In this document: positions 1 through 11,869 of the stretch, in pieces
Numbering within the stretch: position 1 is the first letter of the stretch
Layout of the letters: each line of letters opens with the position of its first letter
Source: a virus
Length of the DNA stretch: 33,678 nt
Reading direction: 5' to 3' (one strand)
IMG/VR virus record: IMGVR_UViG_3300030107_000493
Span: 1-33,678 of that record
Made by a program: the position numbers and the translations under genes
The notes under the pieces: model-generated
What the model saw: the letters and a program-made list of their open reading frames with translations, nothing else
Told to the model about the DNA's origin: nothing
Database searches by the model: none

Positions 1-480
1 ACTATCACTTGCTTTGAGGTACTAGAACATGTAGCACCTGAACACTCAAGACGTATGCTCAACAAGATCTTTGAGCTACTAGAACCTGAAGGTACTGCAT
101 TTGTCAGTACACCTTGCTGGGACCCTGATGTTGGCGCTGCTAACAATCACATCAACGAAATGACTTATGAAGCACTAGGAGGCATGATAGAAGATGTCGG
201 CTTTGCTATCGAAGGCGTGTGGGGTACATTTGCAAGCATAAAAGACTACAAAGATGAACTAGGTGAGCATAAAAATACATTCGATCAGCTACGTTTGTAC
301 TACGATACAAACTATTTAGCTACGATCTTTGCTCCTCTATTTCCTCATAGGTCTCGCAACTGTATTTGGCAACTAAGAAAAAATCCTAACAATGAGACGT
401 GGAACAGACGATTTCAATCATTGAGAGATGTAGATACTCGCTGGTCTAGCTCAGAGGATTGGAGGCAATTACAACCATGA
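1..480 (+). CDS. Class I SAM-dependent methyltransferase, C-terminal part (5' truncated by window edge)
   Basis: Frame 1 is open from the first base, so the gene starts upstream of the window. The first visible residues contain FEVLEHV (bases 13-33), the acidic post-motif of class I methyltransferases. Next comes LLEPEGTAFVSTP, matching the 'L+PgG.l.istP' strand, and then NHINEMT, as in the Methyltransf_11/23 type. The SAM-binding glycine loop lies outside the window. The substrate cannot be read from the sequence. It lies directly upstream of nucleotide-modification genes and overlaps the next start by ATGA, so a role in base or nucleotide modification is possible but unproven; modification of a protein or cell-surface molecule is equally open. 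Confidence 0.75.
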   Translation, partial: TITCFEVLEHVAPEHSRRMLNKIFELLEPEGTAFVSTPCWDPDVGAANNHINEMTYEALGGMIEDVGFAIEGVWGTFASIKDYKDELGEHKNTFDQLRLYYDTNYLATIFAPLFPHRSRNCIWQLRKNPNNETWNRRFQSLRDVDTRWSSSEDWRQLQP

Positions 481-836
481 TAAAAGACGTTGACGCTTTT
501 CTAGCTAAGTTTAGCTTAAAGTATGACGGTTTACCACGTAGCCTAGACAACGCTACTCGTGATGAACGTATACGTCATATGTATGAAGAACTTGAAGAGT
601 ATTCTAAAGCTAATAGTGTAGCAGAGGAGTTTGACGCATTAATTGATCTGATATACCTAGCAATAGGTACTGCACGCATGCAGGGTCTCGACCTTGAGGT
701 TGGTTGGGACCGCGTGCATCAGGCCAATATGCGTAAAGAAAGAGTAATAGACGATGACGGTTACTACAAAGCCGGCATCAAAAAACCAGAAGGCTGGCAA
801 AAACCAGACCTTACAGATCTCACTAATGGAGATTAG
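477..836 (+). CDS. MazG-like all-alpha NTP pyrophosphohydrolase
   Basis: This 119-aa protein has the helical metal-binding pattern of the MazG/HisE/dimeric dUTPase superfamily: EELEE in one helix, then EEFDALIDLIY in the next, followed by GLDLEVGWDRVHQANMRK. Such enzymes split an NTP to NMP plus pyrophosphate. The ATG at 477 overlaps the upstream stop (ATGA) and has GGAGG at 461-465. A TTG at 459 in the same frame is less likely. The next gene begins immediately after the stop. In this operon it could supply dNMP to the kinase and ThyA-like enzyme, as T4 gp56 does from dCTP and dUTP. The actual nucleotide specificity is not visible. Confidence 0.75.
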   Translation: MIKDVDAFLAKFSLKYDGLPRSLDNATRDERIRHMYEELEEYSKANSVAEEFDALIDLIYLAIGTARMQGLDLEVGWDRVHQANMRKERVIDDDGYYKAGIKKPEGWQKPDLTDLTNGD

Positions 837-1835
837 ATGATAATAATATTAGAAGGACCAGACGGTGCAGGTAAGACGACTCTTGCAAAAGAGCTAGTCA
901 GACAAACAAAAGGAATTTATCTGCACCTAAGTTATCGCTGGCCGCAACAGATTTTTTTATATCACACAGCTGCTATACGTTATGCAGCACGTCAAGAACG
1001 ACCTGTAATTATTGACAGATGGTGGCCATCAGAGGCTATCTATGCTACTAGTTACAGAGGACAATCACCCTGGCCATTGCAAGGTCGCATGGCAGATCGA
1101 GTTGCACGTAAACATGGTGCACTATACATTTACTGCCTACCAGAAAACGTTGAAGAACATTGCAACGTCTTCTTACATCTAAAAAAACAACGAGAAGAGA
1201 TGTATGATGACATATACGAAGTTACACATAAATATATGTCGTTGTGGTATGGTAATCAGTTACATGAAAAAGGTGAAAACTACATAGATTTCGTAATACG
1301 TAATGGTGGCTTACAAGACAGAGGTGACCACTTACGTTATAACATAGAAGAACACGGGCATTATATAGATCTATTTGCTGAGCGTGCAATAGACATGGCT
1401 AAAATCACGCGAGAGCTACAATATCAGCCTGCATTACAATATTCTAATTTTAATATATTAGGAAATACTGATATGCTAAAGTACTTATTTGTAGGTGAGC
1501 AAGTCAATCCTAAATATCGTGAGCTTTATTGGCCATTCTATGAGTACAAGAATTCTAGTTTATACTTAACACAGTGTATGCAAGCAGCCGAGATCCCTGA
1601 AGAAGGTATCATGTGGTGTAATGCTTACAACCATGATGAGTCAATAAACGAGAATATAAAACCGATCGTCGAGCAGTATAAGCCGCGAGTCATAACGTTT
1701 GGTGCACATGCAGCAGAGGCTATGGCTAAACTAGGGGTCGAAACATATGACGAGTTAGTTCATCCGTCTTATGCTAAACGATTCGGTAAAGTTAACTTAA
1801 TGGAGGTAATGAAAGATGTCATATTATGCGAATAA
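837..1835 (+). CDS. Two-domain protein: deoxynucleoside monophosphate kinase fused to a uracil-DNA-glycosylase-like domain
   Basis: The 332-aa protein opens with a Walker A loop (GPDGAGKTT, residues 7-15). IIDRWWPSEAIY near residue 60 corresponds to the DR(Y/H) region of thymidylate kinases, and a Lys/Arg-rich lid lies around 115-125. Residues from about 213 are unrelated to kinases and follow the UDG superfamily order: LFVGEQVNP (motif A-like, 217-224), WCNAYNHDES, PRVITFGAHAAEAMAKLGV (283-301, the 'PkvivaLG..A' strand-helix) and VHPSY (308-312, the HPS motif). An in-frame ATG at 1473 with AGGA at 1460-1463 could let the second domain be made alone. Kinase activity is likely; glycosylase activity is uncertain because motif A is divergent. 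GGAG at 828-831 serves the start. Confidence 0.7.
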   Translation: MIIILEGPDGAGKTTLAKELVRQTKGIYLHLSYRWPQQIFLYHTAAIRYAARQERPVIIDRWWPSEAIYATSYRGQSPWPLQGRMADRVARKHGALYIYCLPENVEEHCNVFLHLKKQREEMYDDIYEVTHKYMSLWYGNQLHEKGENYIDFVIRNGGLQDRGDHLRYNIEEHGHYIDLFAERAIDMAKITRELQYQPALQYSNFNILGNTDMLKYLFVGEQVNPKYRELYWPFYEYKNSSLYLTQCMQAAEIPEEGIMWCNAYNHDESINENIKPIVEQYKPRVITFGAHAAEAMAKLGVETYDELVHPSYAKRFGKVNLMEVMKDVILCE

Positions 1836-2625
1836 TGAGTGGCTCAAAGTACTTTATGAAGCTAACAAGTATGGGACTGAACACGCACCTAGAGGAGAGT
1901 ATACGCGTGAATTGTTAGGACGTAAGATACAAGTTAATATGAGGTGGCCAGTCGTAACTGTAGTAAAGCGTAAGCTTTCATACAAGTTTATGGCAGCAGA
2001 AGCTTTATGGATCTTGTCAGGTGATAATAAAGTAGAAACTATAGCCAAGTATAATAAAAATATAGCTAAGTATTCTGATGATGGTCTTACATACTTTGGG
2101 GCGTATGGTCCTAAGTTTGTAGATCAAATTTCATACGTAGCAAGAGCATTATTAAAAGACCATGACACGCGTCAAGCAGTCATGAACATTTGGAGAGAAA
2201 AGCCATACTACACAAAAGATGTACCTTGTACTCTTAGTGTGCAGTGGATGATCAGGCATGGTAAGCTACATTGTTTTGTAAGCATGAGATCGTCTGACAT
2301 ATGGCTTGGTTTACCGTACGACATATTTAATTTTAGTATGATGACGCACTACTTGATGTTGTACCTTGAAGCACAAGGTCTTACAATATCTATAGGAGAC
2401 TTACATCTTACAGCTGCAAGCATGCACTTATATGAACAACACTGGGAACCTGCTTTAGAACTATTAAAACAAGATAGTTATAATTCTACATTTATTCCTG
2501 AAAGAGTTGTAAGGAGTATAGAACCTACAATAGCAAGTTTTATAGACTTCGAGCACTTTTTTCAATACTTAACATATGCTAAAAACCATGGTTTTGAGCT
2601 TGAGGAAAGGCGTGTCGCAGATTAA
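1816..2625 (+). CDS. Thymidylate synthase-fold enzyme, predicted dCMP hydroxymethylase (or dCMP methylase)
   Basis: This 269-aa member of the ThyA fold keeps the catalytic Cys (VPCT, C138), the phosphate-binding pair R158-S159, D161, and H204/Y206 of the HLY motif. The residue aligned to E. coli ThyA Asn177 is Asp169 (GLPYDIF in place of GLPFNIA). Asn-to-Asp at this site is the known switch from dUMP to dCMP, as in T4 gp42. The segments CTxxVQWMIR and MRSSD also look closer to T4 gp42 than to ThyA, and the ThyA C-terminal 'APVAI' tail is missing. The product would be 5-hydroxymethyl-dCMP or 5-methyl-dCMP, with methylene-tetrahydrofolate as carbon donor. The start has GGAGG at 1802-1806 and overlaps the kinase gene by 20 bases. 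The fold is certain; the specificity is inference. Confidence 0.8.
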   Translation: MSYYANNEWLKVLYEANKYGTEHAPRGEYTRELLGRKIQVNMRWPVVTVVKRKLSYKFMAAEALWILSGDNKVETIAKYNKNIAKYSDDGLTYFGAYGPKFVDQISYVARALLKDHDTRQAVMNIWREKPYYTKDVPCTLSVQWMIRHGKLHCFVSMRSSDIWLGLPYDIFNFSMMTHYLMLYLEAQGLTISIGDLHLTAASMHLYEQHWEPALELLKQDSYNSTFIPERVVRSIEPTIASFIDFEHFFQYLTYAKNHGFELEERRVAD

Positions 2626-3076
2626 AGCAACTGAGTATTTTTTAATTATGGCTAGATTAGTCTCGCGCAGAAGTACTTGTGCGAGACGTCAAGTTGGCTG
2701 TGTACTTGTTGACGAGCACAAACACGTGCTCGCAACAGGCTACAATGGCGTGGCATCAGGTAAGACGCATTGCACTGACAAGCCATGTCCAGGGGCTAAA
2801 TGTAAGCCCGGTGAAAATTTAGATTTATGTGAAGCAATACATGCAGAGCAAAATGCAATACTGCAATGCAAAGACTCACAAAAGATTAGAACTGCTTATA
2901 TTACAACTGCACCTTGTGTAACTTGTACTAAGCTATTATTAAACACGTCTTGTAAGACGATAGTATTTATAGAAAGCTATCCTAATTCAGGACGTAAAAT
3001 ATGGAACAGGAGCTGGATAAAGTATGGACCAATTGACGATGTTTTCGCCGAAGTCCTCTTGGATACCACCAAGTGA
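2612..3076 (+). CDS. dCMP deaminase
   Basis: This zinc-dependent deaminase converts dCMP to dUMP. It contains HAEQNA (H77 ligand, E79 proton shuttle), PCVTC (C102, C105 ligands), the N-terminal signature RRSTCARRQVGCVLVD and GYNG. The Cys/His-rich HCTDKPCPGAKC insert resembles the second zinc site of T4-type dCMP deaminases. I chose the GTG at 2612 because GAGG lies 6 bases upstream (2602-2605) and the protein then begins at the usual place (MSQIKATEYF). An ATG at 2576 would add 12 residues inside the upstream gene. The gene overlaps the ThyA-like gene by 14 bases and the polymerase gene by 53. It would compete with the ThyA-like enzyme for dCMP, or balance the pools. Confidence 0.9.
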   Translation: MSQIKATEYFLIMARLVSRRSTCARRQVGCVLVDEHKHVLATGYNGVASGKTHCTDKPCPGAKCKPGENLDLCEAIHAEQNAILQCKDSQKIRTAYITTAPCVTCTKLLLNTSCKTIVFIESYPNSGRKIWNRSWIKYGPIDDVFAEVLLDTTK

Positions 3077-4904
3077 CTTTCCTACATTAAGAGATGCAAC
3101 TACAATTGCATTTGATGTAGAAACATACGATCCTAACTTATTAACGTTAGGGCCTGGCGGTGTAAGACGCGATGGTAAATTAGTAGGTATCTCTGTAAGA
3201 TCAGATTGTGGCTTTTGTGGCTACTTTCCGTTTGGTCACGAAGGCGGTGATAACTTAGAAAAAGAGAAGGTATTACGTTGGGCTAAGGACATCTTAGGAC
3301 GCGATATAGAGTATGTAGGAGCCAATATTTTGTACGATATGGAATGGCTAAGGGCATATGACATAGAAGTCAAAGGAACACTAAGAGATGTACAAGTAGC
3401 AGAGCCGTTGATCAATGAAGAATCACCACAAGGCTACAGTCTAGCAGTATTAGCTAAACGTTATTTAGGCGAAGATAAAAATGAAGATTTATTAATAGAA
3501 GCTGCTCGTGCTCACGGTGTAGATCCAAAAGGTGGTTTATGGAAGTTGCCAGCACGATTTGTAGGTCCATATGCAGAAGCAGATGCTGACCTGCCATACA
3601 ACATATGGCTGCGTCAAATACAAAAACTAAAGAATCAAGACTTGTGGGATATATTTGAACTAGAGTCACAATTGATCAGAGTTATACTTGACATGAGATT
3701 TAAAGGTGTTGCTGTTGATATAAATAAAGCAGAACAACTTAATGAACAATACAAGACAGAAGAAGTTAAGTTACTTAAACAAATAAGAAGTGAAAGTGGC
3801 ATGTTGCTTGAGCCGTGGTCACCTGATGATCTGCAAAAAGCATTTGATAAACTTGGTATATGGTATCCTAAGACAGCTAAAGGTAATCCGTCGTTTGTGT
3901 CTGACTGGCTAAACAACCATGATGAGTCGCTGCCAAAACTGATCGGCCAGTTTCGTAAGACTTGTAAGATGAGAAGAGATTTTATAGAAGGAATTTGCAT
4001 GAAGCAAAATCACAATGGTCGCATACACGCTCAGTTTCACGCGCTCCGCAAAGATGCTGATGGTACTCGTACAGGTAGGTTTAGTTCGTCGACTCCTAAC
4101 CTACAGCAGATACCTGCTCGTGACGATCATTGGGGCCCATTGGTAAGATCGTTATTTACTCCTGACGAAGGGTGCCAATGGGCCTGCTTAGATTATTCAC
4201 AGCAAGAACCTCGTGTACTTATGCACTATGCCTTTCTTAGAAAACTAAGAGGCTCAGAAGAAGCTGTAAAGTTATTTAACAACGATGAGCATGCAGACTT
4301 TCACCAGATTGTATCCGATATGGCAAATATCCCCCGAAAATCTGCTAAGACTATCAATTTAGGCATGTTTTATGGAATGGGTATATTTAAGCTGTCTCAA
4401 CAATTAGGACTGGACATGAATGAAGCAAAGCCATTGTTTGAGCAGTATCATCAACGCGTACCGTTTGTACGGCAACTAGCACAAGAATGTAGTAAGGCAG
4501 CTAGTACTCGTGGATTTATAAGAACTTTACTTGGCAGACAACGTCACTTTGATCTGTGGGAACCATCAGATTCTAGAAACAAGTGGCCAAACAAAGAAGT
4601 ACCTCTGTCATACGATCAAGCATTACGTGTATGGGAAGGCAGACCACTAAGACGTAGCTTTACACACAAAGCACTAAATGCACTAGTACAAGGCTCATCT
4701 GCTGACATGATAAAGAAAGCTATGGTGGATCTACATGAACATGGTATTACACCACAAATTACTGTGCACGATGAAATAGATTTTTCGTTTGATAACAGTC
4801 AGGATTTAGTTATGGCGCAAGAGATTATGGAAAACTGTGTCAAGCTGCATGTACCATTGAGAGTAGATGTAGAAGTTGGTCCTAACTGGGGAGACATAAA
4901 ATGA
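3024..4904 (+). CDS. polA: Family A DNA polymerase with 3'-5' exonuclease
   Basis: This 626-aa replicative polymerase lacks a 5' nuclease domain. Exonuclease motifs are intact: FDVET (D31, E33), N101-xxx-D105 and YAEAD (Y183, D187). Polymerase motif A is LDYSQQEPR (D390, E395), motif B is RKSAKTINLGMFYG (R438, K442, Y450) and motif C is VHDE (H582-E584). The position equivalent to E. coli Phe762 is Leu446, a variant linked in the literature to slower, higher-fidelity synthesis. TGTRTGRFSSSTPNLQQIP (about 348-364) is the conserved template-binding stretch. AGGAG at 3008-3012 precedes the ATG; an alternative ATG lies 15 bases downstream. The start lies inside the deaminase gene. No DnaJ-like insert, as reported in phage HMO-2011, is seen. 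Confidence 0.97.
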   Translation: MDQLTMFSPKSSWIPPSDFPTLRDATTIAFDVETYDPNLLTLGPGGVRRDGKLVGISVRSDCGFCGYFPFGHEGGDNLEKEKVLRWAKDILGRDIEYVGANILYDMEWLRAYDIEVKGTLRDVQVAEPLINEESPQGYSLAVLAKRYLGEDKNEDLLIEAARAHGVDPKGGLWKLPARFVGPYAEADADLPYNIWLRQIQKLKNQDLWDIFELESQLIRVILDMRFKGVAVDINKAEQLNEQYKTEEVKLLKQIRSESGMLLEPWSPDDLQKAFDKLGIWYPKTAKGNPSFVSDWLNNHDESLPKLIGQFRKTCKMRRDFIEGICMKQNHNGRIHAQFHALRKDADGTRTGRFSSSTPNLQQIPARDDHWGPLVRSLFTPDEGCQWACLDYSQQEPRVLMHYAFLRKLRGSEEAVKLFNNDEHADFHQIVSDMANIPRKSAKTINLGMFYGMGIFKLSQQLGLDMNEAKPLFEQYHQRVPFVRQLAQECSKAASTRGFIRTLLGRQRHFDLWEPSDSRNKWPNKEVPLSYDQALRVWEGRPLRRSFTHKALNALVQGSSADMIKKAMVDLHEHGITPQITVHDEIDFSFDNSQDLVMAQEIMENCVKLHVPLRVDVEVGPNWGDIK

Positions 4905-5296
4905 AGGAAAAAGATTTCTGGCGATCACTGCAACCTAAATTAAATGGTCATGTAAGTCGCGTAGAAAATGTAGTAGGTTCAGGTCTACCTGACGTAAATA
5001 TATGCCACAACAGCATTGAAACTTGGGTTGAACTTAAAGTAGCTACAGGTAATTACTTACTATTTGAATGGGCTCAGATCAGCTGGTTTAAATTTAGAGG
5101 ACAAGAAAGAGGTAGAGTAAAAGTTGTAGCTAAACATAAAGAGGATATTATTATCTGTGATGTAGAAGATATACTACGTGTCGAACCAAGGCGTAAAGTA
5201 AAAGCAGGTATTCTGATCGACAGCATACCTAACCTTAAACGTTACAGCAAGCCTTACGATTGGCAAAAGATAAATGATAGTATTTCATTTTGGTAA
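4901..5296 (+). CDS. PD-(D/E)XK-type nuclease, VRR-NUC-like
   Basis: This is a 131-aa protein. GSGLPDVNI is followed by ETWVELKVATG, giving the spaced D...ExK signature of small PD-(D/E)XK nucleases, and RVENVVGSG resembles the entry to VRR-NUC domains. The rest, with WFKFRGQERGRVKVVAKH and IIICDVEDI, fits the closing strand and helix of that fold. Such phage enzymes cut branched DNA or flaps during replication and packaging, or degrade host DNA. The start ATG overlaps the polymerase stop (ATGA), so the two are likely co-translated. It ends the first plus-strand gene block and is followed by a promoter-like gap. Confidence 0.7.
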   Translation: MKEKDFWRSLQPKLNGHVSRVENVVGSGLPDVNICHNSIETWVELKVATGNYLLFEWAQISWFKFRGQERGRVKVVAKHKEDIIICDVEDILRVEPRRKVKAGILIDSIPNLKRYSKPYDWQKINDSISFW

Positions 5297-5351: not shown

Positions 5352-5663
5352 ATGACTGTATATGTAGTACAAGAAGTAAAGGGTATGAATCTTTTACCTG
5401 CCACTGAGTTTGGTGAATTAGAAATACTCTTACCACAAGGACAAGTTGGCTTTTCAGCAGGACCTACAGTCAAAAGACTATACTCAGGTTTACGTAAGTT
5501 TACCTATGAAGATTATCTTTTGATGATTGGTGATCCGGCTGCTATTGCATTAGCAGGTGCTGTTGCTAATAATATTAGTAATGGTAAGCTAAAATTACTT
5601 AAGTGGGATAAACAAGAGAAAAGCTATTATGTTATAAAAGCTAATCTCACTGGAGGCAAATAA
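5352..5663 (+). CDS. Unknown phage protein (103 aa)
   Basis: I do not assign a function. The 103-aa protein starts MTVYVVQEVKGMNLLPATEFG and reads as a compact alpha/beta protein: ELEILLPQGQ and two or three strands first, then a helical stretch (YEDYLLMIGDPAAIALAGAVANN) and a basic strand (KLKLLKWDKQEKSYYVIKA). There is no signal peptide, membrane segment or recognisable catalytic motif. AAAGGAG at 5336-5342 sits at good distance from the ATG, and a promoter-like element precedes it. The stop overlaps the next ATG (TAATG), so it is coupled to the coiled-coil protein. First place behind the promoter suggests high early expression, perhaps linked to replication. Confidence 0.8.
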   Translation: MTVYVVQEVKGMNLLPATEFGELEILLPQGQVGFSAGPTVKRLYSGLRKFTYEDYLLMIGDPAAIALAGAVANNISNGKLKLLKWDKQEKSYYVIKANLTGGK

Positions 5664-6178
5664 TGTCTATAGAAGATAAACAACTAAAGACTGTTAGCAA
5701 GTTAGCTGAGTATCAGTTAATACTTGAGAATAAAATCAAGCAAGCTGAAGAAGACTTAGCAACACTTAAAGAACAGTTTAAGCAAGTATCACAAACTGAT
5801 CTGCCAGAAGCATTAGCTGAGACAGGTCTGTCTGAAATAAAATTAACTGACGGTAGTAAAATATCTGTACAGCAATTTTATAATGCTAGTATTCCTAAGG
5901 ATAATCTTGATGAAGCATTTACTTGGCTGCGTGACAACGGTCATGCAGATCTTATAAAGAATACTGTTGCTTGCAGTTTTGGACGTGGTGAAGATGGCGA
6001 TGCTAAGGTGCTCAAAGAAGAGTTATCAAGAATCGGCGTCTCATACACTGAAAAAGTAGGCGTACACCCACAGACACTAAAAGCGTTTGTGCGTGAACAA
6101 GTCGAGTCTGGCCAGAACCTGCCCCTGGACTTACTCGGAGTATATATCGGGCAGAAAACAGTAATAAAAGGAGGTTAA
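5663..6178 (+). CDS. Unknown phage protein with N-terminal coiled coil (171 aa)
   Basis: Residues 1-50 form a long charged helix with heptad spacing (LENKIKQAEEDLATLKEQFKQ), a probable coiled coil. The middle (KLTDGSKISVQQFYNASIP) looks beta-rich. The C-terminal half (LDEAFTWLRDNGHADLIKN; VHPQTLKAFVREQVESG) is helical and ends near GVYIGQKTVIK. No enzyme motif is seen. It lies between a 103-aa unknown and the SSB-like gene, 4 bases before the latter, so it probably serves DNA replication or recombination. Oligomerisation through the coiled coil is a fair inference; any function beyond that is not supported. Confidence 0.8.
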   Translation: MSIEDKQLKTVSKLAEYQLILENKIKQAEEDLATLKEQFKQVSQTDLPEALAETGLSEIKLTDGSKISVQQFYNASIPKDNLDEAFTWLRDNGHADLIKNTVACSFGRGEDGDAKVLKEELSRIGVSYTEKVGVHPQTLKAFVREQVESGQNLPLDLLGVYIGQKTVIKGG

Positions 6179-6182
6179 CATC

Positions 6183-6917
6183 ATGGCTCGTGATGTAACA
6201 ACTAAGAAAGAGCAACTACCCTCTGAAATTAATTTTGCCGAGGATGCTAATGTAGGATTTGAAGATCTTACACAGCAAGACGTTGCTATACCATTTTTTG
6301 TTTTACTACAAAAGATGAGCCCTCAATTAGATAGCGTTGAGGGTGCAAAGGCCGGTCAAGTGTTCAATACTGTGACTGAAGAAGTTTGTGACGAACTGAA
6401 GGTAATACCGTGTGCTTATAAACGTGAGTTTGTAGAGTGGACTCCACGTGAGCAAGGCGGTGGTTTGGTGGCACAACATAGTATTGATAGCGACGCCGTC
6501 AATAGCGCGACACGCTCTGCCGACGGAAGATTACTTTCTGCTGCAGGCAACTGGCTCGTTGAAACTGCATATCATTTCGTGTTAGCAATAACAAAGAATG
6601 GTGTTGAACGTGGCTTACTTACCATGACAAGCACTCAGCTTAAGAAAAACAGACGTTGGAATAGTCTAATGTCTGGCATTAGGTTGAGAGGTCCTAATGG
6701 TACGTATACACCAGCGAGATATAGTCATATCTATAAGCTTACATCATCTCAAGAGAAGAATGATAAAGGTTCTTGGTATGGCTGGAACATTGAGTTAGAC
6801 TCTCAAGTTCTGAAACAGGACATGTATAACACTGCAAAAGAATTTGCAGCGTCTATACAATCAGGTGACGTTAAAACAACTGCTCCTGTTCAGGAAGAAG
6901 AAAAAGAACACTTCTAA
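6183..6917 (+). CDS. Probable phage single-stranded DNA-binding protein
   Basis: The 244-aa protein ends in an acidic tail with a terminal aromatic residue (PVQEEEKEHF), the hallmark used by SSB and T7 gp2.5 to bind replication partners. The body (about 40-215) is rich in strands and aromatics (FFVLLQKM, REFVEWTPRE, YHFVLAITKNGVERGLL, YSHIYKLTSSQEKNDKGSWYGW), consistent with a beta-rich nucleic-acid-binding core; an OB fold is not proven by eye. Its place, just upstream of primase and helicases and downstream of the polymerase, fits. AAGGAGG at 6169-6175 lies ahead of the ATG. A stable hairpin follows the stop. Confidence 0.6.
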   Translation: MARDVTTKKEQLPSEINFAEDANVGFEDLTQQDVAIPFFVLLQKMSPQLDSVEGAKAGQVFNTVTEEVCDELKVIPCAYKREFVEWTPREQGGGLVAQHSIDSDAVNSATRSADGRLLSAAGNWLVETAYHFVLAITKNGVERGLLTMTSTQLKKNRRWNSLMSGIRLRGPNGTYTPARYSHIYKLTSSQEKNDKGSWYGWNIELDSQVLKQDMYNTAKEFAASIQSGDVKTTAPVQEEEKEHF

Positions 6918-11226: not shown

Positions 11227-11526
11227 CTAAGACATAATCCATTTCTTTATCTTCCTGTTAAATGACCTTGGCAATGGCAGTTGCTTACATTCTTTAATCC
11301 AAGATTTATCTAGCACAAGACTACCATCTATATCAACTTGTGTTTCATCACCAGACAAGTGTGATACTATAGTAATAGTCTTTTCGTTTTCAGCTACAAT
11401 AATACCCATGGATACACAATCACCTAGTTTAGATCGTAGTTCATGTATATTAGTCCAGCCGCTAGTAGGAGAGATAGCGTCTTCCCAGTTAATTATCACC
11501 AATCTCGGTAAATTCTTCTTTGCCAT
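11227..11526 (-). CDS. Unknown phage protein (99 aa), last gene of the late arm
   Basis: The 99-aa protein has a tidy beta-rich pattern: LPRLVIINWEDAISPTSGW, then a short helix (IHELRSKL), GIIVAENEKTITIVSHLSG and a basic C-terminal tail (PRSFNRKIKKWIMS). The 'W.DA.sptsGW' opening recurs in small phage proteins of unknown role, as I recall. No signal peptide or catalytic motif is seen. It overlaps the upstream nuclease gene by 38 bases in another frame and has only a weak ribosome site, so translation is likely coupled. Its stop lies in the stem of the convergent junction. Confidence 0.7.
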   Translation of the reverse strand: MAKKNLPRLVIINWEDAISPTSGWTNIHELRSKLGDCVSMGIIVAENEKTITIVSHLSGDETQVDIDGSLVLDKSWIKECKQLPLPRSFNRKIKKWIMS

Positions 11527-11869
11527 AATATCGTGTCTTCGAGTGTTTAGCCATGTAGTCTTTACGACGTTTTACAATCCTACATGTATTTTTAGTCAAG
11601 TCTACATATAACAATTGTACACCTAATTCACGAGCTTTTTTACTAATGATTCTAGATCTGATAGCATTAGATCCATCTCTGTTATATCTATTGGCTTGCC
11701 ACGATACAGTCTTTACATCAAGAAACAGTACTTCACCTGTCTTTTGGTGAACAGCAATCATATCTATAGGGCCCTGAGGAGCACGGTTCTTGAACACCCA
11801 ATAGCCCTTACTGACCAGCCATGCTTCAGCTACTGCCTCAGCAAGGTGGCCCTTGTCAGAGTGTTTCAT
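11489..11869 (-). CDS. PD-(D/E)XK nuclease, small Holliday-junction-resolvase-like
   Basis: The 126-aa protein has the order KGHLAEAVAEAWLVSKGYWVF (helix with Glu), APQGPIDMIAV (catalytic Asp) and VLFLDVKTVSW (DxK), followed by a basic strand-helix region. This matches small PD-(D/E)XK proteins such as archaeal Hjc-like and YraN-like nucleases. It may resolve branched DNA before packaging. It is the second such protein in the window; the first is at 4901-5296. Its start overlaps the upstream gene's stop by ATGA, and the next gene starts inside its 3' end. Lys/Arg-rich C-terminus (RIVKRRKDYMAKHSKTRYYGK) fits DNA binding. Confidence 0.75.
   Translation of the reverse strand: MKHSDKGHLAEAVAEAWLVSKGYWVFKNRAPQGPIDMIAVHQKTGEVLFLDVKTVSWQANRYNRDGSNAIRSRIISKKARELGVQLLYVDLTKNTCRIVKRRKDYMAKHSKTRYYGKEEFTEIGDN

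Follow-up and report, generated by a model that had tools for sequence, protein, structure and literature searches.

Gene order and composition of the locus

A preliminary description made from sequence alone read four genes near the start of a 33,678-nucleotide stretch of viral DNA (IMG/VR record IMGVR_UViG_3300030107_000493; here, the window) as a pathway for cytosine nucleotide modification, parallel to gp56-gp1-gp42-cd of phage T4. The locus raises the question of which chemistry it encodes and how far the T4 parallel extends. The four enzymes originally named (a MazG-like pyrophosphohydrolase, a kinase, a ThyA-fold enzyme, and a dCMP deaminase) were all present, and the genes for them make up a cytosine nucleotide cassette at 459 to 3076 of the window, lying between a methyltransferase gene and a polymerase gene:

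1 to 480, plus strand: SAM-dependent methyltransferase (MTase) gene, 3′ part, joined across the record ends
477 to 836, plus strand: MazG/PRA-PH-type NTP pyrophosphohydrolase (PPase) (PF01503; PHROG)
837 to 1448, plus strand: kinase, N-terminal P-loop nucleoside-monophosphate-kinase-like domain (PHROG; predicted fold)
1449 to 1835, plus strand: kinase, C-terminal uracil-DNA-glycosylase-like domain (Foldseek; PF03167 in some members)
1816 to 2625, plus strand: ThyA-fold pyrimidine hydroxymethylase, predicted substrate dCMP (PF00303; residue table, tree)
2576 to 3076, plus strand: dCMP deaminase (PF00383; PHROG)
3024 to 4904, plus strand: family-A DNA polymerase (PolA) with a 3′-5′ exonuclease domain (PF00476)

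The four genes had been described as overlapping, which holds for the kinase/ThyA-like and ThyA-like/deaminase junctions (~20 and ~50 bases) but not for PPase and kinase, which abut (PPase stop ending at 836, kinase ATG at 837); the 3′ end of the deaminase gene also overlaps PolA. The PPase matched PF01503 (E = 1.7e-8; 35.2 bits, cutoff of 21.3) and a nucleotide pyrophosphohydrolase PHROG (E = 3.4e-17), with a TTG at 459 as an alternative start. The deaminase matched PF00383 (E = 8.8e-20) and a dCMP deaminase PHROG (E = 1.4e-38), with intact HAE and PCxxC motifs. PolA (PF00476; E = 4.3e-65) is the final gene of a six-gene order, MTase-PPase-kinase-ThyA-deaminase-PolA, that was seen again in dozens of viral contigs. 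Of 55 loci inspected, 51 of them retrieved with the kinase and four serving as references, 40 had this order complete, and contig ends truncated most of the remaining ones. Such recurrence is far beyond chance, and the cassette is common to many unrelated phages, the window phage being marine. The suggestion that two PD-(D/E)XK nucleases attack unmodified host DNA found no support: the first, a VRR-NUC-like open reading frame, follows PolA here and in related loci, the second matches YraN/UPF0102 only weakly, and neither gave a sign of specificity for unmodified DNA.

Two cultured Stenotrophomonas phages, AXL3 (gp31-gp27) and PW916, carry MTase, PPase, kinase with its C-terminal domain, ThyA-like enzyme, and deaminase in the same order as the window; unlike the window phage, they are siphophages whose genome backbone differs and whose PolA gene lies elsewhere. 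Identity of the AXL3 proteins to the window family was ~49% for the ThyA-like enzyme, ~30% for the MTase, and ~25% for the kinase. According to published work, AXL3 DNA is left uncut by 35 of 37 restriction enzymes and is cut only by enzymes recognizing AATT and TTAA.

The ThyA-like enzyme is likely a dCMP hydroxymethylase

The ThyA-like protein matched PF00303 (E = 7.3e-26), and its closest relative in the PDB was the CMP 5-hydroxymethylase MilA (E = 4.7e-23). Its specificity motif is LPYD, compared to LPFN in E. coli, placing Asp at position 177 (T4 Asp179) and bearing out the dCMP-type active site first proposed. In the catalytic motif, DVPC, an Asp lies three residues before the catalytic Cys (C-3; T4 Asp145), where E. 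coli has Leu. Both aspartates were found in 116 of 116 distinct ThyA-like proteins sharing a locus with the MTase, as were the equivalents of Cys146 and Glu58 (catalytic Cys, Glu58/60). Asp at C-3 was common to all three characterized hydroxymethylase types compared (T4 gp42, SP8, and MilA), whereas L, V, or N occupies this position in the methylase clade, and a structural study of the T4 enzyme names this Asp as a signature of hydroxymethylation (PMC6400193). Substrate residues differed among these types: the SP8 enzyme has Asn177 (dUMP), and MilA prefers CMP via Ala176 and Lys133, whereas the window enzyme carries the Ser and Arg that switch MilA from CMP to dCMP. The T4 motif Ser94-x-Tyr96 reads Gly-Ala-Tyr in the cassette enzyme, with Tyr kept and Ser replaced by Gly. 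Since the SP8 dUMP hydroxymethylase likewise lacks Ser94 and the T4 S94A mutant retains ~25% activity, Ser94 marks the T4 subfamily rather than activity.

The phylogeny with T4 gp42 and Xp12-type enzymes that had been called for was run with AXL1, a relative of Xp12, standing in for Xp12 itself, which lay outside the comparison. Cassette enzymes branched with those of SP8 and phage G (support of 95/95), the SP8 clade being nearest, and apart from T4 gp42, ThyA, and the AXL1 enzyme; AXL1 gp63, in which C-3 is Asn, fell together with ThyA (100/98). Other MTase-linked ThyA-like enzymes branched with gp42 (99/98). Because of Asp177, Asp at C-3, and its place in the SPO1-type hydroxymethylase clade, dCMP hydroxymethylation is the likely chemistry, and we conclude that the window enzyme is likely a dCMP hydroxymethylase of this clade and not a T4 dCH.

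These results bear on the T4 parallel, which stands as an analogy of function. The same reaction set is proposed for the cassette, and the ThyA-like enzyme shows superfamily-level homology to gp42 (hhalign probability of 99.4%) with the Asp179 and Asp145 equivalents and the catalytic Cys in common, but it belongs to a different clade. Neither PPase nor kinase has detectable kinship to its T4 counterpart: the PPase gave an hhalign probability of 0.7% against gp56, and the kinase aligned with gp1 only over residues 2 to 27 (the P-loop; probability of 9.4%). In further contrast to T4, the cassette forms one operon, has an MTase where T4 has glucosyltransferases, and carries a uracil-DNA glycosylase (UDG)-like domain on its kinase.

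The kinase carries a candidate UDG-like domain

The kinase gene (837 to 1835, plus strand) encodes a 332-amino-acid protein with the P-loop GPDGAGKTT that matched a thymidylate kinase PHROG (E = 1.3e-14), as did the N-terminal domain (E = 5.3e-15). The predicted fold of the N-terminal domain (pLDDT of 92.9) most resembled that of SPbeta YorR (2axp/3kb2), with TM-scores of 0.71 to 0.74 by target, and a search of plasmids with the kinase returned no match. The C-terminal domain resembles uracil-DNA glycosylases in its predicted fold, for which Foldseek gave UdgX (6iod; E = 3.7e-4), and in its motifs GEQVN, WPF, N, and HPS..KRF, of which GEQ, PF, N, and HPS are common to the UdgX/UDG superfamily; here, the candidate UDG-like fold is fused to a nucleotide kinase. 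Of 22 members, 6 matched PF03167 (UDG) in this domain, at E = 2e-4 for the strongest, the window protein scoring 17.7 bits, under the curated cutoff of 24.3, and a PDB profile search with the domain gave no match.

The methyltransferase is a conserved member of the system

The window begins inside the MTase gene, whose 5′ part lies at ~40885 to 41247 of the 41,384-bp record. The two record ends share a 137-base overlap containing 2 mismatches, and the protein joined on this basis has 280 amino acids. A ThyA-like gene was found in 65 of 66 MTase-found loci (counting loci that have such a gene or 4.5 kb or more of downstream sequence), and, reciprocally, the MTase was found in 65 of 74 ThyA-found loci not cut short. 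A single locus (L034) had the MTase without the cassette. Among 50,697 phage records, the MTase occurred only in AXL3, PW916, ct3Et533, and ctUtU524, all four of which have the cassette, and a genome collection outside phages held only two true members, the rest being weak class I matches. The suggestion that an upstream methyltransferase "might act further" was therefore understated: the MTase is a conserved member of the system in a recurring order, not merely a possible accessory.

Pfam Methyltransf_23 matched the MTase of a close relative (L022; E = 1.4e-13). E127, E130, H131, and H171 were invariant across the family (128 of 128 readable among 130 distinct sequences), and NHxNE, GTFAS, and SRNxxW were conserved as family-specific motifs. 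With HEN1 and UbiG O-methyltransferases, the MTase shares, at low identity, motif I, an ExxEH that aligns and follows strand 4, and an invariant His after strand 5, the last equated with that of HEN1 by its place after that strand rather than by a printed alignment. The MTase can thus be assigned from its residues to the HEN1/UbiG branch of class I, with a putative ExxEH...H metal quartet of HEN1-type O-methyltransferases and predicted methylation of a hydroxyl. A DNA N4/N6 or C5 methyltransferase was rejected: (D/N)PP(Y/F) and PC/ENV motifs were absent, motif IV reads FEVLEH (alignments A2 and A3), and DNA-methylase Pfam families gave no match. Foldseek did not discriminate among substrates, returning more than a thousand generic class I matches at E < 0.001; the tRNA enzyme CmoM at the top of the list is suggestive only.

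Proposed pathway

We consider it probable that the cassette supplies the phage genome with a modified deoxycytidine nucleotide, through pre-replicative formation of 5-hydroxymethylcytosine (5hmC) followed by MTase methylation, perhaps to 5-methoxymethylcytosine. The PPase, judging by its family, would convert dCTP to dCMP, and the ThyA-like enzyme, as its residues and phylogeny strongly suggest, would hydroxymethylate dCMP at C5 with methylene-THF. The kinase would phosphorylate the hydroxymethylated product, the deaminase may turn surplus dCMP into dUMP for dTMP, and the co-conserved family-A polymerase would incorporate the modified dCTP. Conservation and linkage suggest that the MTase methylates the hydroxymethylated cytosine, as a nucleotide or in DNA. 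The UDG-like domain, more speculatively, may recognize a pyrimidine base as a selector or sensor. Pre-replicative hydroxymethylation, toward which the T4 parallel of the preliminary description pointed, agrees with the protection of AXL3 DNA at G/C-containing sites. A more specific version, which we advance only tentatively, is that the MTase is a metal-dependent O-methyltransferase capping the 5hmC hydroxyl, that a large environmental phage group carries 5-(methoxymethyl)cytosine, and that the UDG-like domain inspects the base, either on the nucleotide or in DNA.

A close precedent comes from MetaGPA, in which Asp177 thymidylate synthases, PF01503, and deaminase domains were found together on contigs with modified cytosine (PMC8670742). 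Its carbamoyltransferase system, which makes 5-carbamoyloxymethylcytosine, likewise combines an Asp177 ThyA-like enzyme, PF01503, and a deaminase with an enzyme capping the hydroxymethyl group (PMC8670742); in contrast, the conserved partner in the cassette is a SAM methyltransferase, and the word methyltransferase is absent from the MetaGPA main text (PMC8670742). In the literature searched, whose reach mostly excluded subscription papers, we found no report of methoxymethylcytosine or O-methylated 5hmC in a phage.

Alternative explanations

The strongest alternative, although unlikely, is a plain 5hmC pathway as in T4, with the MTase doing another job (on an RNA end, tRNA, or protein) and linked only by operon history. 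Consistent with this, the best MTase PHROG is "tRNA methyltransferase" (E = 1.5e-8), CmoM is a structural neighbor, and the HEN1-like quartet is that of an RNA 2′-O-methyltransferase. Pelagiphages HTVC119P and HTVC200P, which encode both the ThyA-like enzyme and the kinase, manage without the MTase, indicating that hydroxymethylation does not depend on it. However, members of the MTase family neighbor hydroxymethylases of two lineages, and the gene orders differ: in ~12 loci they are ~3 to 5 kb from a gp42-like, T4-like dCMP hydroxymethylase (Ser94-x-Tyr96, Asp145, and Asp179 all present). In the 50,697-record collection, the family is absent from phages lacking a hydroxymethylase-type enzyme. 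Operon history alone is therefore insufficient to account for the linkage.

We regard as very improbable an Xp12-type system, in which the ThyA-like enzyme would be a dCMP methylase and the DNA would contain 5-methylcytosine (5mC). Asp177 alone also occurs in dCMP methylases, the PPase-thymidylate synthase-deaminase set is also present in AXL1, and most G/C enzymes fail on both AXL3 and Xp12 DNA. Nevertheless, the cassette enzyme falls in a separate clade and has Asp at C-3 rather than L, V, or N, and no DHFR was seen in the window record, whereas AXL1 carries one. Moreover, Xp12 5mC DNA is cut completely by KpnI and AhdI, whereas AXL3 DNA resists these 5mC-tolerant specificities (KpnI and the AhdI isoschizomer Eam1105I).

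Ordinary thymidylate supply (deaminase to dUMP, ThyA-like enzyme to dTMP, kinase to dTDP) fits the names given in databases (thymidylate synthase, thymidylate kinase), and the AXL3 authors themselves read their genes as a thymidylate pathway. It is nevertheless the least credible explanation, given that every cassette enzyme has Asp177 and thus lacks the dUMP determinant, that AXL3 additionally has ThyX, and that AXL3 DNA is modified.

Implications for phage DNA modification

Phages protect their DNA by replacing cytosine, and a new base blocks restriction or Cas nucleases; a modified base is also a target of type IV defenses and of glycosylases such as Brig1 and Brig3. The cassette differs from T4 by pairing predicted hydroxymethylation with a dedicated methyltransferase, and the DNA of the window phage may contain a previously undescribed cytosine base. 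AXL3 and PW916 are cultured, ready test objects, and for AXL3, resistance of the DNA to cutting at G/C-containing sites is already on record. If the proposal is correct, the MTase would offer a new enzymatic means of labeling 5hmC, and methylated hydroxymethylcytosine would be a small, stable cap, unlike the sugars of T4 or the carbamoyl group, across hundreds of environmental phages.

A candidate cytosine-nucleotide modification cassette recurs in phages

All four genes named in the preliminary description were found in the window at the positions it gave:

477-836 (alternative TTG start at 459), NTP pyrophosphohydrolase (PPase), MazG/PRA-PH type
837-1835, P-loop kinase
1816-2625, ThyA-fold protein
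2576-3076, dCMP deaminase
3024 (start), family-A DNA polymerase (PolA), directly after the deaminase
4901-5296, VRR-NUC-like ORF; 3' of PolA in relatives, where further replication genes also lie
11489-11869, minus strand, YraN-like ORF; match only just at cut-off

The PPase and kinase genes abut rather than overlap, as had been stated for all four; the remaining junctions do overlap. The suggestion that two nucleases attack host DNA was unsupported, the VRR-NUC-like ORF lying in a replication-gene context and the YraN-like ORF barely reaching the cut-off. The full virus record (G000) is 41,384 bp, of which the window covers bases 1-33,678; its ends share a 137-base overlap with two mismatches and split the methyltransferase (MTase) gene upstream of the PPase gene, whose joined product is 280 aa. 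No DHFR, ThyX, or glycosyltransferase turned up in the window record when its principal early ORFs were put through family searches and the list of ORFs was read. The portal protein is most similar to those of HTVC010P-type pelagiphages (45-46%), which are podoviruses. Just beyond the window end, a 10-N run (G000 33679-33688) has near-duplicate flanks, with the portal gene start present twice, with differences; this looks like a scaffold join between two strain variants. The polymerase (3024-4904) scored 315 bits against NCBIfam DpoZ (aminoadenine-incorporating polymerase; cut-off 500), and this enzyme, like its relatives, may have adapted to handle modified bases. Three genes 3' of it (5352-6917) match the phage Pam3 gp32, gp33, and gp34 families, and such genes lie downstream of the cassette in several relatives too.

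Three scans of metagenomic, redundant databases gave counts that are not independent, because many contigs are common to them: the 332-aa kinase as query in IMG/VR yielded 51 loci, which together with four references showed the complete MTase-PPase-kinase-ThyA-deaminase-PolA order in 40/55, most of the others running into a contig end; the MTase (at least 210 relatives, 80 kept) was accompanied by a ThyA-like gene in 65 of the 66 loci with such a gene or at least 4.5 kb downstream; and the ThyA-like enzyme (456 relatives, 80 kept) was accompanied by the MTase in 65 loci, with 6 cut short and 9 lacking it. In a 50,697-record phage collection, the MTase occurred only in AXL3, PW916, ct3Et533, and ctUtU524, each with the cassette. 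Among 84,980 bacterial and archaeal genomes, true members lay on only two contigs. A true relative (46%) is on a bacterial contig of Nitrospiraceae UBA8922 (L095); given this and the Nitrospira matches reported by the AXL3 authors, Nitrospira may harbour a related prophage.

The ThyA-like enzyme has hydroxymethylase residues

The window enzyme retains the catalytic Cys and Glu58 and, as had been proposed, a dCMP-type active site, with Asp at position 177, the dUMP-versus-dCMP determinant. Its DVPC motif places Asp three residues before the catalytic Cys (C-3), the water-activating signature of hydroxymethylation according to the T4 dCMP hydroxymethylase structure (PMC6400193). C-3 Asp is also present in T4 gp42 and the SP8 dUMP hydroxymethylase (our alignment) and in the CMP hydroxymethylase MilA (printed pairwise alignment); the residue is Leu in E. 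coli ThyA, Asn in the Xp12 relative AXL1, and Val or Leu, depending on alignment, in the S28C10 pelagiphage-type enzyme. At MilA positions Ala176 and Lys133, changes to which switched MilA from CMP to dCMP, the window enzyme has Ser and Arg. The T4 signature Ser94 is Gly here and is absent from SP8 as well. Phylogeny, proposed earlier as a check against T4 gp42 and Xp12-type enzymes, placed the cassette enzymes outside both the gp42 and the ThyA/AXL1 clades, with SP8 and phage G (95/95), although long branches come together in the tree, so that its deep splits are less certain than the residue comparison.

In pelagiphage S28C10, the genomic slot of the hydroxymethylase-type genes of HTVC119P and HTVC200P is occupied by a gene (L017:8380-9138) whose product belongs to the ThyA clade and has Asp177 together with VLPC; dCMP hydroxymethylase and dCMP methylase have probably been exchanged for one another within one phage genus.

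The predicted structure of the kinase N-domain resembles SPbeta YorR. The C-domain, predicted with high confidence, resembles UdgX (Foldseek E 3.7e-4); Pfam UDG matches occur in 6/22 members (best E 2e-4), and conserved positions include G-[E/D]-x-x-N, W-P, S-S, N, G..A, and H-P...R-F. It is an accessory part, since the ct3Et533, HTVC119P, and HTVC200P kinases lack it. Because Brig1 and Brig3, two defence enzymes of the UDG superfamily, recognise glucosyl-5hmC and 5hmC (PMC13160076), it is plausible that this domain reads a cytosine derivative, the weakest part of our account.

The MTase may act on hydroxymethylated cytosine

The MTase (METHYLTRANSFERASE) has a predicted class I fold (mean pLDDT 89.5), and its PDB profile matches were a rickettsial protein lysine methyltransferase (E 2.3e-8), UbiG (3.5e-4), and Arabidopsis HEN1 (7e-4). 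FEVLEH after strand 4 aligns with HEN1 CLEVIEH and UbiG CMEMLEH, and E127, E130, H131, and H171 are invariant in 128/128 readable sequences (130 distinct). The HEN1 metal ligands are E796, E799, H800, and H860, the last past strand 5 (PMC10781085); H171 likewise comes after strand 5. Because the ExxEH-type motif and H171 match this layout, the sequence suggests a metal-assisted O-methyltransferase, an enzyme type whose natural acceptor would be the hydroxymethyl group. The MTase could instead methylate N4 or act on RNA. Neither a DPPY nor a PC/ENV motif was found in the MTase; Foldseek ranked the tRNA enzyme CmoM first, a rank that cannot decide the substrate because too many proteins match the class I fold.

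The best argument that the MTase would act on hydroxymethylated cytosine is its independent pairing with two hydroxymethylase lineages in differing gene orders. At about twelve MTase loci, the cassette PPase, kinase, and PolA are not adjacent, and a T4 gp42-clade enzyme lies about 3-5 kb away, with the Ser94-x-Tyr96, Asp145, and Asp179 equivalents all kept. Across all loci, Asp177 and C-3 Asp were present in 116/116 distinct MTase-linked ThyA-like proteins (15 of the T4 Ser-Asn-Tyr type, 101 Gly-x-Tyr).

L034 (MTase at 6017-6868), the sole clear MTase locus that shows no ThyA-like gene within its available sequence, has a C5-cytosine DNA methylase 1.5 kb upstream (3330-4463; PF00145, E 5.3e-13), so the family might also act beside 5mC.

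Relation to phages with altered DNA and to T4

In the cultured Stenotrophomonas phage AXL3, gp31-gp27 are the MTase, PPase, kinase with C-domain, ThyA-like enzyme, and deaminase, and ThyX is encoded separately. Of 37 restriction enzymes for which the genome contains sites, only those recognising AATT and TTAA digested the DNA; the AXL3 authors deduced altered G/C bases and annotated the cassette enzymes as thymidylate synthesis (PMC7504290). That annotation, in both AXL3 and PW916, is probably wrong. The PW916 kinase gene is present but unannotated (L007:2211-3296). AhdI is an isoschizomer of Eam1105I. The altered base of AXL3 is unlikely to be 5mC, because KpnI and Eam1105I are among the 35 enzymes failing on its DNA (PMC7504290), whereas KpnI and AhdI cut Xp12 5mC DNA completely (PMC7653180) and both KpnI and Eam1105I cut AXL1 DNA partially. 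In independent work with MetaGPA, Asp177 thymidylate-synthase, PF01503, and deaminase domains occurred together on modified-cytosine contigs (PMC8670742).

All cassette functions are assigned from sequence. On that basis, the parallel drawn earlier with T4 gp56-gp1-gp42-cd holds for how the pathway would work but not for the gene set: the ThyA-like enzyme belongs to a clade other than gp42, homology of the PPase to gp56 or of the kinase to gp1 was not detectable, and the place of the T4 glucosyltransferases is taken by an MTase. The high interest of the preliminary description rested on the T4 parallel; the MTase is the more surprising part.
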